From the NCBI GenBank assembly GCA_001899585.1, contig MKWE01000003.1, positions 124,001-188,000 of the forward strand: a stretch of 64,000 nucleotides of DNA. The letters are read 5' to 3'. Source of the stretch: Rhodospirillales bacterium 70-18 (GTDB lineage: Bacteria > Pseudomonadota > Alphaproteobacteria > Acetobacterales > Acetobacteraceae). Shown here piece after piece: positions 2,854 through 9,229 of this stretch. Position numbers and translations under genes: made by a program. Each line of letters opens with the position of its first letter. Position 1 is the stretch's first letter. Below the pieces are notes generated by a model that saw only the letters and a program-made list of their open reading frames with translations, did not search any database and had not been told where the DNA came from.

Positions 2854-4533
2854 GTGCCAGTTCCATTGCCCTTGAGCCAGCGCGCCGACGGGCTGGCGGC
2901 GGCCGCGCCCGCGTTGCGCCGCGCCGGCCTGCTGCAAACCCTGGCCGCCCTGCTGTGGGTACCGCAGGCGGCGTTGCTGGCGCTGACCGTCGCGCGGCTG
3001 GCGGAAGGCGGCGGGCTGGGGCAGGCGCTGCCGGCGGCGGCGCTGATCCTGCTGGCCGGCCTGCTCCGCGCGGCGCTGGAGGCGGCCGGCGCGCGGCTCG
3101 CCTTCCGCGCAGGCCGGGCTGCGCTGTCGTCGCTGCGCCTGGCCGCCGCCGCGGCGCTCGCCGCCCGCTCGCCGCTGGACGTGGCCCGCCCGCCATCCGG
3201 CGAGGCCGCCGCCGCGCTGGGCGAACAGGCCGACGCGGTGCTGCCCTATCTGGTGCGCTACCGCCCCGCCCGGCAGCGCGCCGCGCTGGTGCCGCCGCTG
3301 CTGCTGCTGGCGGTGGCGACGCAGAGCTGGATGGCCGCACTGATCCTGCTGGTCGCCGCCCCGCTGATCCCGCTGTTCATGGCGCTGATCGGCCTGCGCG
3401 CGCAGGAGGCCAGCGCGCGGCAGATGCTGGAGATCGGCGGCACCAACGCCTTCCTGCTCGACCGGCTGCGCGGCTTGGCCACCATCCGCGCCTTCGATGC
3501 CGTGGAGGTGACGGCCACGCGGCTGCGCGCCGCCGCCGAGGCGCTGCGGGCGCGGAGCATGGCGGTGCTGCGCATCGCCTTCCTCTCCTCGGCCGTGCTT
3601 GAGCTGTTCGCGGCGCTCGGCGTCGCCATGCTGGCCGTCTATATCGGCTTCACCCTGCTCGGCCAGATCGGTTTCGGCGCCTGGGGCGGCGGGATCGGGC
3701 TGGCGGGCGGGCTGTTCATGCTGCTGCTGGCGCCCGCGTTCTTCGAGCCGCTGCGCGACCTCGCCGCCGCCTGGCATGACCGCGCCGCCGGCGAGGCGGC
3801 GCTCGACGCGCTGGCGCGGCTGGCCGGCAGCGGCGAGCAACTCCTGCCCGGGGCGGGAGACGACCCTTCGCGCGGCCCGCCCGGCGGCCCATCGGCCGGC
3901 CCGCCGACCGTCGTGGTCCAGGGGCTGGCCTTCGCCTATCCTGGCGCGGCGCAGCCGGTGCTGGACGGGTTCGATCTCGGCGTCGCCGCCGGCGAGCGCG
4001 TCGCCCTGTTCGGCCCGAGCGGCGGCGGCAAGACGACCCTGCTCGCGCTGGTCGCCGGGCTGGCCGCCCCGCAGGCGGGGACGATCGCGGTCGGCGGCGA
4101 GGCCTTGACCGGCGGCAACGCGGCCGCGCTGCGCACCGGCATGGCCTGGATCGGCCAGCGCCCGCATCTGTTCGCCGGCTCGCTGCGGGCCAACGTGCTG
4201 CTGGGGCGCGACGGCCTGGCCCCGGCGGCGGCCGACGCGGTGCTGGCGCGCCTGCTGCCCGGGCGGGACCGGCGGCGCCAAGTGGGGGAGGGCGGGGCCG
4301 GCCTGTCCGGCGGCGAGGCGCTGCGCCTCGCGCTGGCGCGCGCCGCCGTCGATCCGCGCGCCACCCTGCTGCTGGCCGACGAGCCGACCGCGCACCTGGA
4401 TGCGCAGACCGCCGCGGACGTGACGGCGGCGCTGCTCGACGTGGCGCGCGGCCGCACCCTGATCGTGGCGACCCACGACCCGCTGCTGGCCGCCCGGCTC
4501 GACCGGGTGGTCCTGATCGGTGGGCCGCGATGA
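2854..4533 (+). CDS. cydD: Thiol reductant ABC exporter subunit CydD
   Basis: CydD is one half of the heterodimeric CydDC exporter, which moves cysteine/glutathione to the periplasm and is needed to assemble cytochrome bd. The 559-residue product has an N-terminal six-helix ABC-exporter membrane domain (about residues 20–320) and an ATPase domain with Walker A GPSGGGKTT near 388, signature GLSGGEA near 484 and Walker B LLLADEPTAHLD near 505. GTG at 2854 is used as the start; TTG at 2866 or 2872 is possible. The stop overlaps the cydC start (ATGA), so the two are translationally coupled. The following cydABX genes confirm the role. Confidence 0.93.
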   Translation: MPVPLPLSQRADGLAAAAPALRRAGLLQTLAALLWVPQAALLALTVARLAEGGGLGQALPAAALILLAGLLRAALEAAGARLAFRAGRAALSSLRLAAAAALAARSPLDVARPPSGEAAAALGEQADAVLPYLVRYRPARQRAALVPPLLLLAVATQSWMAALILLVAAPLIPLFMALIGLRAQEASARQMLEIGGTNAFLLDRLRGLATIRAFDAVEVTATRLRAAAEALRARSMAVLRIAFLSSAVLELFAALGVAMLAVYIGFTLLGQIGFGAWGGGIGLAGGLFMLLLAPAFFEPLRDLAAAWHDRAAGEAALDALARLAGSGEQLLPGAGDDPSRGPPGGPSAGPPTVVVQGLAFAYPGAAQPVLDGFDLGVAAGERVALFGPSGGGKTTLLALVAGLAAPQAGTIAVGGEALTGGNAAALRTGMAWIGQRPHLFAGSLRANVLLGRDGLAPAAADAVLARLLPGRDRRRQVGEGGAGLSGGEALRLALARAAVDPRATLLLADEPTAHLDAQTAADVTAALLDVARGRTLIVATHDPLLAARLDRVVLIGGPR

Positions 4534-6230
4534 CCGGCTGGGCGTCGCTGCGGGCCGTGCTGCGGCTGTTCCGGCAGGATCGCCGGCTGCTGCTGGGCGG
4601 CGGGGCGGCGCTGTCGGCGGCGACCGTGCTGGCGGGGGTCGCGCTGCTCGGCCTGTCGGGCTGGTTCATCACCGCCACCGCCATCGCGGGCCTCTCGTCC
4701 GCCGCCGCGCTGGGGTTCGACGTGTTCCAGCCCTCGGCAGGGATCCGTTTCCTGGCGATCCTGCGCACCGCCGCCCGCTACGGCGAGCGGCTGGTGACGC
4801 ATGACGCGGCGCTGGCGGTGCTGGCGGCGCTGCGCGAGCGGCTGTTCCGTGCCTATGCGGCACCGAACGCCGCGCGCGCGCTGCTGGCCCGGCCGGCCCG
4901 GCTGCTGTTCCGGCTGACCGCCGATGTGGACGCGCTCGACACCCTCTATCTGCGGCTGCTCGTGCCGGCCGCGGCGGCGCTGGCCACGGCCGCGGCCGTC
5001 GGCATCGGGCTCGGCCTGCTGGACTGGCAACTGGGCGCGGCGCTGGCGGCGGCGGTGCTGGTGCCCGGCCTTGGCATCCCGCTCTGGCTGGCGCGCGCGG
5101 CGGTGCGCCCGGCGCGGCTGCGCACCGCGGCGGCGGAGGCGCTGCGCGCGCGGATGGTCGATCTGGTGGCTGGCCAGACGGACCTCGCGCTGGCCGGCCG
5201 GCTGGGCGCGCAGCGGGCGCGGATCGCCGGCGCCGAGGCGCGGCTGGCCGAGGCGGAGGATGCGCTCAACCGGCTGGAGGTGCGCGCCGGCCTGCTGTTC
5301 GGCGTGGTGGCGGCGCTGATCCTGTCCGGCGCCCTGCTGGCCGCGGCCGCGCTGGCCGGGTCGGGGGCCGGGTTGGGGGCGATCTCAGCGCCGCAGGCGG
5401 CGCTGGTGGTGCTGGTGGCGCTGGCCGCGCTGGAACCCTTCGCGGCGCTGCGGCGCGGGGCGCTGGAACTTGGGCGCACGCTGATCGCCGCCCGCCGCCT
5501 CGCCCCCCGGCTGGCGGCCCCGCCGCTGCCGCAGGCGCGACCGGCGCCGCCGGCCGGCTTCGCGCTGGCGATCGAGGGCGTGACCTTCCGCTACGACGGC
5601 GCCGCCGCCCCGCTGTTCCGCGACCTGTCCCTCCATCTCGCGTCCGGCGGGCGGGCGGCCCTGATCGGCCCGAGTGCGGCCGGCAAATCGACCGTCCTGG
5701 CGCTGCTGGCCGGCGAGGCGGAGCCGGAGGCCGGCCGCATCCGCGTCGCCCGCTGCGGCGTGCTGACGCAGCGCACGGAGCTGTTCCGCGACAGCCTGCG
5801 CGGCAACCTGCAACTGGCCGATCCGGCCGCCGACGACACCGCGCTGTGGCGCGCGCTGGACCGCGCGGGCCTGGGGGCGGATGTGCGCGCGCTGCCGGCC
5901 GGGCTGGACGCCATGCTCGGCGAGGGCGGCACCGGCCTGTCCGGCGGGCAGGCGCGGCGGCTGGCCCTGGCGCGGCTGCTGCTGCGCGACGCGCCGCTGT
6001 GGCTGCTCGACGAGCCGACCGAGGGGCTCGACCGTGCCACCGCCGCGGCATTATTGACTTATATCAATGGACAGGAGCCGTCGGTCACCATACTACTGGC
6101 GACGCATCTGCGGCGGGAGGCGGCGCTGGCCGACCGCCTGTTCCATCTGGTCGATGGCCGGATCGTGGCGGAGTGGCGCCGCGGCGAGGCCGGATACCAG
6201 GCGGCGCTGGACTCGCTGAGGCCCGACTGA
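4530..6230 (+). CDS. cydC: Thiol reductant ABC exporter subunit CydC
   Basis: CydC is the partner of CydD in the periplasmic thiol exporter required for bd oxidase maturation. The 566-residue protein has an exporter-type membrane domain (about residues 15–320) and an ATPase domain with GPSAAGKST near 381, GLSGGQA near 469 and LWLLDEPTEGLD near 490. It starts in the ATGA overlap with cydD. Near the 3' end (6051–6095) the codon choice changes abruptly (TTA, TTG, ACT, TAT, AAT, GGA, ATA, CTA), quite unlike the rest of the gene. This patch coincides with an FNR-like site described separately and may be a promoter embedded in coding sequence. Confidence 0.93.
   Translation: MTGWASLRAVLRLFRQDRRLLLGGGAALSAATVLAGVALLGLSGWFITATAIAGLSSAAALGFDVFQPSAGIRFLAILRTAARYGERLVTHDAALAVLAALRERLFRAYAAPNAARALLARPARLLFRLTADVDALDTLYLRLLVPAAAALATAAAVGIGLGLLDWQLGAALAAAVLVPGLGIPLWLARAAVRPARLRTAAAEALRARMVDLVAGQTDLALAGRLGAQRARIAGAEARLAEAEDALNRLEVRAGLLFGVVAALILSGALLAAAALAGSGAGLGAISAPQAALVVLVALAALEPFAALRRGALELGRTLIAARRLAPRLAAPPLPQARPAPPAGFALAIEGVTFRYDGAAAPLFRDLSLHLASGGRAALIGPSAAGKSTVLALLAGEAEPEAGRIRVARCGVLTQRTELFRDSLRGNLQLADPAADDTALWRALDRAGLGADVRALPAGLDAMLGEGGTGLSGGQARRLALARLLLRDAPLWLLDEPTEGLDRATAAALLTYINGQEPSVTILLATHLRREAALADRLFHLVDGRIVAEWRRGEAGYQAALDSLRPD
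6054..6094 (+). promoter_or_regulatory. FNR/Anr-type box and internal promoter inside cydC
   Basis: TTGAC-N4-ATCAA at 6054–6067 differs from the FNR consensus TTGAT-N4-ATCAA at one base. A -10-like CATACT at 6089–6094 would put a start near 6101, about 41 bp from the box centre at 6060.5, which is the classical class II activator position. The codons beneath both motifs (TTA, ATA, CTA) are rare in this GC-rich genome. The site could drive cydABX separately from cydDC under low oxygen. This is inferred from sequence only. Confidence 0.6.
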
Positions 6231-6300
6231 CACCGCGCCATAATCGGGCCTGCATGGCACGAATCGGGCCGCCGCCATCCCGTGGCAGCCGAACGCGATA

Positions 6301-6333
6301 AAGGAGGCCGGCCGCCCGCCGGCATGGTTCGCG
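6301..6333 (+). promoter_or_regulatory. Unusually distant Shine-Dalgarno with hairpin before cydA
   Basis: AAGGAGG at 6301–6307 is 26 bases from the cydA ATG, too far for a normal start. Between them, GCCGGC (6307–6312) and GCCGGC (6318–6323) can pair around a 5-base loop, which would bring the effective spacing to about 10 bases. An out-of-frame ATG at 6324 could also be used. Confidence 0.4.
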
Positions 6334-7917
6334 ATGGAATTCGACATCGTCTCGCTGTCGCGGCTGCAGTTCGCCACGGTTGCCCTGTATCATTTCCTGT
6401 TCGTGCCGCTGACCCTCGGCCTGTCGCTCATCGTCGCCATCATGGAGACGGTGTACGTGATGACGGACCGCCCGGTCTGGCGGCAGATGACCAAGTTCTG
6501 GGGCACGCTGTTCGGCATCAACTTCGTGCTGGGGGTGGCGACCGGACTGACCATGGAGTTCCAGTTCGGCATGAACTGGAGCTACTACAGCCACTACGTC
6601 GGCGACGTGTTCGGCGCGCCGCTGGCCATCGAGGGCCTGATGGCCTTCTTCCTCGAAGCCACCTTCGTCGGCCTGTTCTTCTTCGGCTGGGACCGGCTGT
6701 CCAAGGTCGGCCATCTGGCCACGGCCTGGGCGGTGGCGCTCGGCTCCAACCTCTCGGCGCTGTGGATCCTGATCGCCAATGGCTGGATGCAGAACCCGGT
6801 GGGCGCCGCGTTCAACCCGATGACCATGCGTATGGAGGTCACCGACTTCTACCAGGTGCTGTTCAACCCGGTGGCGCAGGCGAAATTCGTCCACACGGTT
6901 TCGGCCGGCTACGTGACGGCCTCGATCTTCGTCCTGGGCGTATCCGCCTGGTACCTGCTGCGCAACCGGCATACCGCGCTGGCACGGCGGTCGATGGCGG
7001 TGGCGGCCTCGTTCGGCCTGCTCTCGTCGCTCTCGGTCGTCGTGCTTGGCGACGAAAGCGGCTACCTGGCCAACGAGCACCAGAAGATGAAGCTCGCCGC
7101 GATCGAGGGCATGTGGGAGACTGAGGCCGCGCCGGCCCCCTTCACCGCGATCGGCTTCCCCGACCAGGCGGCGCGCACCACCCACCACGTGCTGCAAATT
7201 CCGGGCGCGCTGGGGCTGATCGCCACCCGCTCGCTGGACACCACGCTGCCGGGCATCAAGCAACTGGTGGACGAGGCGAAGGGCCGCATCGCCAGCGGCG
7301 TGCTGGCCTATGACGCGCTGCAGGCGATCCGCACGGCCCGCAGCGTCACCGCCGTGGCGCCGGCGGTGCGCGCGGCGTTCGAGGCGAACGGCCGCAATCT
7401 CGGCTATGCCTACCTGCTCCGCCGCTACGTGGCCGACCCGCGCACCGCCAGCCCCGCGCAGATCGACGCGGCCGCCTGGGACCTGGTGCCGGCGGTGGCG
7501 CCGCTGTTCTGGTCGTTCCGGGTGATGGTGGGGCTGGGCTTCTTCTTCATCCTGCTGCTCGGGACATTCTTCGTGCTGTCGACACGCCAGCGGCTGGACC
7601 GCCACCGCTGGCTGCTCTGGGTGGCCGTGCTCGCCATCCCGCTGCCATGGATCGCCGCCGAACTCGGCTGGCTGGTCGCCGAGATCGGCCGCCAGCCCTG
7701 GGCGATCGAGGGGGTGCTGCCGACCGCGCTGGCGGTGTCCAGCCTAGGGGTGGCGCAGGTGGCGCTCACCCTCGCGGGCTTCGTGCTGTTCTACAGCGTG
7801 CTGTTCGTGGTCGAGATGGGGCTGATGCTGCGCGCCATCCGCAAGGGGCCACAGCCTGAGCACGGCCTTCCCGCCCCCGCCCCCGGCGGCGTGGCGCACC
7901 CTGTCGCGGCGGAGTGA
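6334..7917 (+). CDS. cydA: Cytochrome bd ubiquinol oxidase subunit I
   Basis: CydA carries the three haems and the quinol site of cytochrome bd, which reduces oxygen to water at high affinity. At 527 residues it matches the long-Q-loop (E. coli-like) form. Visible landmarks are His20 in ALYHFLFVPLTLG (haem b595 ligand position), the FVHTVSAGY histidine and FWSFRVMVG methionine (haem b558 ligands by family knowledge), and the Q-loop GDESGY...KLAAIEGMWET with the conserved Lys and Glu. The start is the ATG giving MEFDIVSLSRLQF, the usual CydA N-terminus. It lies 103 bp after cydC with a hairpin-separated ribosome site. Confidence 0.97.
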   Translation: MEFDIVSLSRLQFATVALYHFLFVPLTLGLSLIVAIMETVYVMTDRPVWRQMTKFWGTLFGINFVLGVATGLTMEFQFGMNWSYYSHYVGDVFGAPLAIEGLMAFFLEATFVGLFFFGWDRLSKVGHLATAWAVALGSNLSALWILIANGWMQNPVGAAFNPMTMRMEVTDFYQVLFNPVAQAKFVHTVSAGYVTASIFVLGVSAWYLLRNRHTALARRSMAVAASFGLLSSLSVVVLGDESGYLANEHQKMKLAAIEGMWETEAAPAPFTAIGFPDQAARTTHHVLQIPGALGLIATRSLDTTLPGIKQLVDEAKGRIASGVLAYDALQAIRTARSVTAVAPAVRAAFEANGRNLGYAYLLRRYVADPRTASPAQIDAAAWDLVPAVAPLFWSFRVMVGLGFFFILLLGTFFVLSTRQRLDRHRWLLWVAVLAIPLPWIAAELGWLVAEIGRQPWAIEGVLPTALAVSSLGVAQVALTLAGFVLFYSVLFVVEMGLMLRAIRKGPQPEHGLPAPAPGGVAHPVAAE

Positions 7918-7922
7918 CGGCG

Positions 7923-9077
7923 ATGATCCTGCACCAGTTGATCGATTACGAGACGCTGCGCCTGATCTGGTGGGTGCTGCTGGGCGTGCTGCTGATCGGC
8001 TTCGCCGTCACCGACGGGTTCGACCTCGGCGTCGGCGCCCTGCTGCCCTTCGTGGCGCGCACCGATATCGAGCGGCGGGTCGCCATCAACACCGTCGGGC
8101 CGGTGTGGGAAGGCAATCAGGTGTGGCTCATCCTGGGCGGCGGCGCCATCTTCGCCGCCTGGCCGCCGCTGTACGCGGTGTCCTTCTCCGGGTTCTACCT
8201 GGCGATGTTCGCGGTGCTGGCGGCGCTGATCGTGCGCGCGGTGGGCTTCAAATACCGCAGCACCCGCGAGGATGCGCGCTGGCGCGCCACTTGGGACTGG
8301 GTGCTGTTCGCCGGCGGCTTCGTGCCGGCGCTGATCTTCGGCGTGGCGGTGGGCAACGTGCTGCAGGGCGTGCCGTTCCGCCTGGACGCCGATCTGCGGA
8401 TTTTCTACGAGGGCTCGTTCTTCGGGCTGCTCAATCCCTTCGCCCTGGTGTGCGGCCTGCTCTCGGTGGCGATGTTGGTGATGCACGGCGCCGCCTGGCT
8501 GTCGTTCAAGGCCGAGGGCGTGGTGGCCGAGCGTGCCCGCGCCTTTGGCGGGGTGGCCGCCTTGGCCACCATCCTGCTGTTCGCGCTGGGCGGGTTGGCG
8601 CTGTGGCTGTTCGTCAGCGGCTACAGCATCACCAGCCCGGTGGCGCCCGATGGCCCCTCCAACCCGCTGCTGAAGGATGTGGCACGCGGCGGCGTCGCGT
8701 GGTTCGCCAACTACGCCGCCCACCCCTGGCTGCTGGCGGTGCCGGCGCTGGGCTTCGTGGGCGCCGCCGCGGCGTTCCTGGGCCTGCGCGCCCGGGTGGA
8801 AGGGCCGACCCTGGCCGCCTCCGCGCTGACGATCCTGGGCGTGATCGCCACGGTCGGCGTCGCCATGTTCCCGTTCATCCTGCCGTCCTCGGTCGATCCG
8901 CGCTCCAGCCTGACCGTGTGGGACAGTTCCTCCTCGCACCTGACGCTGTTCATCATGCTGGTGGTGACGGTGATCTTCCTGCCGCTCGTGCTGGCCTATA
9001 CCGCCTGGGTCTACCATGTCCTGTGGGGCAAGGTGGACGAGGCGGCGCTGCGCGACGAGGCCGGGCATTTCTACTGA
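7923..9077 (+). CDS. cydB: Cytochrome bd ubiquinol oxidase subunit II
   Basis: CydB is the structural partner of CydA in the inner membrane and contains no haem ligands of its own in most family members. The 384-residue product starts with the usual short lead and the motif LIGFAVTDGFDLGVGALLPF, followed by several hydrophobic helices and VWEGNQVWLILGGGAIFAAWP. The ATG at 7923 is preferred over the GTG at 7914 because GGAG at 7911–7914 sits about eight bases upstream and the shorter N-terminus fits the family. It follows cydA by five bases and is followed by cydX. Confidence 0.96.
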   Translation: MILHQLIDYETLRLIWWVLLGVLLIGFAVTDGFDLGVGALLPFVARTDIERRVAINTVGPVWEGNQVWLILGGGAIFAAWPPLYAVSFSGFYLAMFAVLAALIVRAVGFKYRSTREDARWRATWDWVLFAGGFVPALIFGVAVGNVLQGVPFRLDADLRIFYEGSFFGLLNPFALVCGLLSVAMLVMHGAAWLSFKAEGVVAERARAFGGVAALATILLFALGGLALWLFVSGYSITSPVAPDGPSNPLLKDVARGGVAWFANYAAHPWLLAVPALGFVGAAAAFLGLRARVEGPTLAASALTILGVIATVGVAMFPFILPSSVDPRSSLTVWDSSSSHLTLFIMLVVTVIFLPLVLAYTAWVYHVLWGKVDEAALRDEAGHFY

Positions 9078-9100: not shown

Positions 9101-9229
9101 ATGTGGTATTTCTCCTGGATGCTCGGCCTGCCGCTGGCCGCCGCCTTTGCCGTGCTGAACGCGATGTGGTTCGAAATGCGCGAGGACGACGCCGAGCGCG
9201 CCCGCGCGGCGGGGCGGCCGCCGAGCTGA
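9101..9229 (+). CDS. cydX: Cytochrome bd small subunit CydX
   Basis: This 42-residue single-helix protein starts MWYFSWMLGLPLAAAFAVLN, which matches the CydX/CbdX family that stabilises the haems of cytochrome bd. A purine-rich AAGGATGAGG precedes the ATG. Its stop codon lies inside the left arm of a long hairpin (9221–9254), so termination of the cyd operon and the end of cydX are physically merged. The gene is small enough to be overlooked by automatic annotation. Confidence 0.92.
   Translation: MWYFSWMLGLPLAAAFAVLNAMWFEMREDDAERARAAGRPPS

Follow-up and report, generated by a model that had tools for sequence, protein, structure and literature searches.

The window analysed here, a 64-kb stretch of DNA from Rhodospirillales bacterium 70-18 (Acetobacteraceae), carries the genes of the CydDC exporter followed by those of a cytochrome bd oxidase. 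All of these genes, cydD, cydC, cydA, cydB and a cydX-like open reading frame, run in one direction. The features of the locus, with the elements discussed below, are as follows:

2854 to 4533, plus strand: cydD, exporter subunit (TIGR02857).
4530 to 6230, plus strand: cydC, exporter subunit, host of the putative promoter (best match PRK11160 CydC).
6051 to 6100, plus strand: AT-rich island, the most AT-rich 50-mer of cydDCAB.
6054 to 6067, plus strand: FNR/FixK box TTGACTTATATCAA, in cydC codons 509 to 513 (TTG ACT TAT ATC AA).
6089 to 6094, plus strand: -10 hexamer CATACT, made up of the third base of codon 520, the ATA codon 521 and the CT of codon 522.
6101 to 6102, plus strand: predicted transcription start, placed by class II geometry.
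6300 to 6323, plus strand: Shine-Dalgarno sequence AAAGGAGG and a hairpin (GCCGGC) of the cydA leader, within the proposed 5' UTR, read from the sequence; the arrangement is common to many relatives.
6334 to 7917, plus strand: cydA, encoding subunit I of cytochrome bd and heading the proposed transcript (PRK15097 match).
7914 to 9077, plus strand: cydB, cytochrome bd subunit II (TIGR00203, above cut-off).
9101 to 9229, plus strand: cydX-like small open reading frame of 42 amino acids, starting MWYFSWMLGLPLAAAFAVLNAMWFEMRE, read from the sequence.

The cydC product scored 326.6 bits against the TIGR02868 CydC model, slightly below the cut-off of 329. The open reading frame at 9101 to 9229 may encode a CydX. 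The box TTGACTTATATCAA fits TTGAYN4RTCAA exactly and is the sole match to TTGATN4ATCAA with one mismatch or fewer in the 64-kb window. It lies at stop-176 (176 nt before the end of the cydC stop codon), and its start is 280 bp upstream of cydA, where the first-pass annotation had put about 270 bp. CATACT is found at box+35, which leaves a gap of 21 nt, so the same annotation was also borne out in placing both elements within cydC at close to class II FNR spacing. The centres of the box (6060.5) and of the -10 (6091.5) are 31 nt apart and, therefore, a start at 6101 or 6102 would put the box at -40.5 or -41.5. At 5.3 bits, CATACT is a -10 of a quality equalled or bettered at 0.19% of window positions, and it is without the first T of TATAAT.

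The composition of this stretch differs from that of the operon around it. The GC content of 6051-6100 is 0.46 compared to a mean of 0.74, and it is equally low in only 6 of the 6171 cydDCAB windows, all of them here. The local codons read TTA TTG ACT TAT ATC AAT ... ACC ATA CTA. Codon rarity was counted over the 54 predicted genes of the window (18,884 codons), in which TTA accounts for 2 of 2251 leucine codons (0.1%), CTA for 14 (0.6%) and TTG for 80 (3.6%), while ATA accounts for 10 of 757 isoleucine codons (1.3%). TTA, ATA and CTA are thus rare among the window's genes, as the first-pass annotation had stated for the genome.

Class II FNR-dependent promoters are well known, for example those of E. 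coli dmsA and narG. The site of Herbaspirillum fnr1, also class II, is centred at -42, and FNR-type activation of cydAB has been reported in that genus (PMC5934665). The predicted promoter in the window resembles class II FNR promoters in that its TTGAYN4RTCAA overlaps the -35 region, its -10 spacing is approximately that of class II and an FNR is encoded in the genome. It is unlike them in that the upstream gene's coding sequence contains all of it. No box with one mismatch or fewer was found in the 700 nt upstream of cydD in the window, and none was found at the head of cydD or in the gap between cydC and cydA in the window's clade.

The predicted leader, at about 230 nt, is long, and this counts against the promoter reading. 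A Shine-Dalgarno sequence followed by a short hairpin and then the start codon is also seen upstream of cydA in many Alphaproteobacteria (L016, L023, L040, L046, L051, L018 and others), with stem sequences that vary (GCCGGC, GTCGGG/CCCGAC, CGCCGCG/CGCGGCG and GGCCGTA/TACGGCT). In single-sequence folds, 42 of 97 cydA leaders folded better than 95% of shuffles, and the window's own leader (p 0.59) was not among them. Rfam gave nothing above threshold at 6000-6500.

The background level of the motif was estimated in the 5.05-Mb genome, where TTGAYN4RTCAA occurs 33 times compared to 2 for a reversed-pattern control. With about two control matches per genome, a lone box inside a gene may be due to chance. 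Another exact box in the same genome, TTGACCGTCATCAA (L206, position 2075), lies inside a different predicted gene and has no correctly spaced -10. A -10 of the quality of CATACT at the correct place is remarkable, unlike one stray box, and it is the relatives that, at the level of sequence, appear to settle whether this is chance or a real element.

The search covered 397 genomes from the family and from relevant genera, and the cydC genes, 57-68% identical to that of the window, were compared codon by codon, counting from the stop. A box was found at exactly stop-176 in L172 (TTGACCTGGATCAA), L174 (TTGACGCGGATCAA) and L189 (TTGACGCAGATCAT) and, in the genomes with weaker forms, in L173 (CTGACCTGGATCAA), L180 (CTGATCCAGATCAA) and L181 (CTGACACAGATCAA). 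The one in L175 is degenerate (TTGAGCTGGGTCAT, TTGAG....GTCAT). Where the window has CATACT, box+35 is TATATT in L172, L174, L175 and L189 and TATCTT in L173, L178, L180 and L181. The fuller element is present in the window, L172, L174, L175 and L189 and the weaker forms in L173, L178, L180 and L181. These nine cydC genes and that of L182 form a clade of ten with 99/99 support, outside of which cydC has neither box nor -10. The T-x-I-N/K residues of CydC are likewise confined to the clade, with other residues outside. When gain and loss of the box were tested on the tree with the full-box label, 3 changes were needed, no fewer than in shuffles. The first-pass annotation had named a box unconserved in spite of a similar CydC as the result that would speak against it; instead, relatives have the box and a better -10 at the same codon positions, in rare codons.

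The extent to which this conservation goes beyond what the protein needs was assessed with a column score, which measures, within each genome, the rarity of the codon used among those for its residue. Five genomes (window, L172, L174, L175 and L189), chosen partly by their box, were scored over 2,075 cydDCAB columns. The top column was cydC 521, ATA in all five, with a summed -log10 P of 9.87 (mean 1.59, sd 0.99), and the second was cydC 509, TTG in all five, at 7.84. The former is the -10 and the latter the first half of the box, and column 520, which gives the T opening the -10, came seventh. Five box-less control genomes showed no such column at that place. Since the five genomes were picked partly by box, the TTG column is biased, but the ATA column is not. 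ATA was still first of 1,147 columns with the window genome left out. When all ten clade members were taken without selection, columns 520 and 521 of the -10 ranked 2nd and 5th of 1,213, and TTG was outside the top six.

Same-residue codon identity between the window and its relatives was little different from what codon usage predicts (observed and expected values of 0.576 and 0.542, and 0.603 and 0.545; in further pairs, 0.581 and 0.541, and 0.510 and 0.504), so the retention of the rare codons needs more than shared inheritance to account for it. Synonymous sites are near saturation in the clade, and TTG and ATA have been retained at them, in agreement with the earlier proposal that regulatory sequence was kept over codon preference. 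The DNA-level conservation of the box and the -10 exceeds protein need. As a separate observation, a rare AGG arginine codon (cydC codon 528, window numbering) is kept in L174, L175, L178, L180, L181 and L189. It is the clade's top codon column and lies about 57 nt after the start of the box, near +10 of the predicted transcript.

Next to the conserved forms, two genomes have changed cydAB. In G161 (L173), which is sister to L172, stop codons interrupt cydA in frame, and a deletion has fused it to the end of cydB; only decayed remnants of cydA, cydB and cydX persist, alongside an intact cydDC. In the box of this genome CTG stands in place of TTG (CTGAC), and in its -10 ATC in place of ATA (TATCTT). 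In G224 (L182/L218), unlike the rest of the clade, cydAB is upstream of cydDC; the box and the -10 are gone, and a search upstream of the relocated cydA found no box. G161 and G224 have both reverted to preferred codons. Three g97 genomes have CTG and TATCTT although cydAB follows cydC. The elements were thus lost where cydAB decayed or moved, in only two cases, and are weakened in g97 with the target present.

A regulator of the matching type is encoded in the window's own genome. This CRP/FNR protein (L159/L219) has CATCSARATSVC together with an internal cysteine (CX2CX7C) and the sequence LGLTIETVSR (E--SR helix). Its matches to the NCBIfam FnrL, FixK and Fnr models were below the cut-offs, and it matches FixK2 and FNR structures; no papers on FixK2 spacing were found. 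Boxes of the same form adjoin hemN, fnr (L159), a ccoN-like gene, nosR/nosZ-like genes, a NarK-like gene with a Dnr-like regulator, and groEL, the names being assigned by reading protein starts. The mean -10 score downstream of the genome's boxes peaks at box+36, one base beyond the offset of the cydC element. FNR relatives with CX2CX7C were found in G351, G312, G411, G153, G309 and G263, and several genomes that have the box or the -10 carry this motif. G204, which has a perfect box, gave as its best match a FixK-type protein that lacks the cysteines, so oxygen sensing there would be indirect, and G161 also has a FixK-type protein without this motif. The box-less G373, G400 and G397 had neither an FNR nor a FixK type at E 1e-20.

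Boxes of this family are also seen at cyd operons in other lineages. In several Rhizobiales (e.g., L033, L072 and L083) and in Hyphomicrobium, an exact box lies close to the head of the operon, about 3.5-4.2 kb upstream of the cydC end. The box family and the gene order are the same as in the window, where the box is instead inside cydC. Agrobacterium and its relatives (L027, L028, L031, L042, L060 and L061) have an exact FNR-type box in cydC at stop-64, about 131-140 bp before cydA, and an additional box at the head. The rarest-codon column of cydC in this group, GTA 551, falls at box+35, and the hexamer there is weak. Like that of the window, this box is inside cydC, but its position, frame, weak -10 and added head box differ, so it looks like a separate origin. 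Given the weak hexamer, a second, independent internal promoter in Agrobacterium is a lead and not a result. In Rhodobacter capsulatus, FnrL recognition sequences have been reported within coding regions (PMC4634722); the location is alike, and that report is without mention of cyd. A near-match in Brucella/Ochrobactrum, TTGTTTTNNATCAA at cydC stop-82, was rejected, having no -10 at the right spacing. An exact box, TTGATCGGGATCAA, also occurs 471 nt into cydD in two related genomes, L185 and L188.

Taken together, the element is very probably an operon-internal, class II, FNR-activated promoter of the sigma-70 type that drives cydAB(X) from within the final third of the cydC ATPase domain. As oxygen falls, FNR, with its CX2CX7C cluster and E--SR recognition helix, would dimerise on TTGACTTATATCAA at -40.5/-41.5. 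Bound FNR would replace a -35 element and recruit RNA polymerase to CATACT, and transcription starting near 6101 would run across a leader roughly 230 nt long before reaching cydA, cydB and cydX. We infer FNR binding, transcription and the oxygen response from these elements. The layout of the operon suggests that cydABX could be raised independently of CydDC, i.e., that the high-affinity oxidase would increase with no increase in the exporter made from the upstream promoter.

One possible explanation for the box is that CydC simply happens to spell it, with L-T-x-I-N/K giving the box and T-I-L/F the -10. Four of the five box codons are largely set by their residues, ATC is the common isoleucine codon, about two such motifs are expected per genome and the box at L206 lies inside an unrelated gene. 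However, the L206 box is without a -10 at the right spacing, five genomes retain TTG (3.6% of its family) and ATA (1.3%) although synonymous sites are saturated, and the T-x-I-N/K residues are themselves limited to the clade. Chance combined with protein constraint is already disfavoured, and we regard it as quite improbable. Another possible explanation is that the rare codons slow translation and so aid folding of the CydC ATPase domain, the box being incidental. A cluster of TTA, TTG, ACT, ATA and CTA in the window genome would fit with this, but the relatives keep just TTG, ATA and the T before ATA, which are the bases of the box and the -10. The spacing, in addition, is that of class II, and the codons were lost where cydAB decayed or relocated and cydC stayed intact; an effect on folding is, therefore, extremely improbable.

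The remaining alternatives accept a bound protein and differ on which it is or what it does. Bound FNR could act as a roadblock, or serve an antisense promoter, and lower read-through of cydDC rather than activate cydAB. Being palindromic, the box could serve in either orientation, and E. coli FNR is listed as a repressor of cydDC (PMC3688515). An antisense promoter was rejected, as offsets 34-37 on the minus strand score -3.4 or lower and offer no -10; the plus strand has one, and it is on the plus strand only that the -10 is conserved. This alternative as a whole is highly improbable. The binder could also be another member of the CRP/FNR family (FixK-like, Dnr-like or L161), with a signal that might be nitric oxide or a two-component system. 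The genome has several HTH_Crp_2 proteins that would share the box, a second FNR-like protein (L161) also has E--SR, and G204 has a FixK-type match only. On the other hand, the cysteine-bearing FNR is the protein of this genome closest to the FnrL/FixK/Fnr families, boxes lie upstream of its own gene and of hemN, and the cysteine motif is present in most box-bearing relatives. A different binder is possible, though on the unlikely side.

The class II FNR promoter would be an element of a known type in an uncommon location, an oxidase promoter within an exporter gene, and the comparative evidence for it is unusually good. No earlier report of a promoter of this kind in cydC was found in a literature search that was thin on subscription journals. 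A broader reading, which we put forward tentatively and hold to be somewhat doubtful, is that cydAB promoters arose in the cydC frame more than once, at stop-176 in the Acetobacteraceae clade and at stop-64 in Agrobacterium, and that the clade's regulatory sequence changed CydC itself (L-T-x-I-N/K). If so, this terminal part of cydC would have been put to dual use repeatedly, keeping control of the oxidase apart from that of the exporter. If the promoter in the window is real, oxygen would set the oxidase and the exporter of one operon separately, and such a promoter would escape both genome annotation and intergenic motif scans. One stretch of DNA encodes a protein and a putative promoter, which makes this a clean natural case, and since sister lineages lost the element and kept the protein, the cost to codon choice would be directly measurable.
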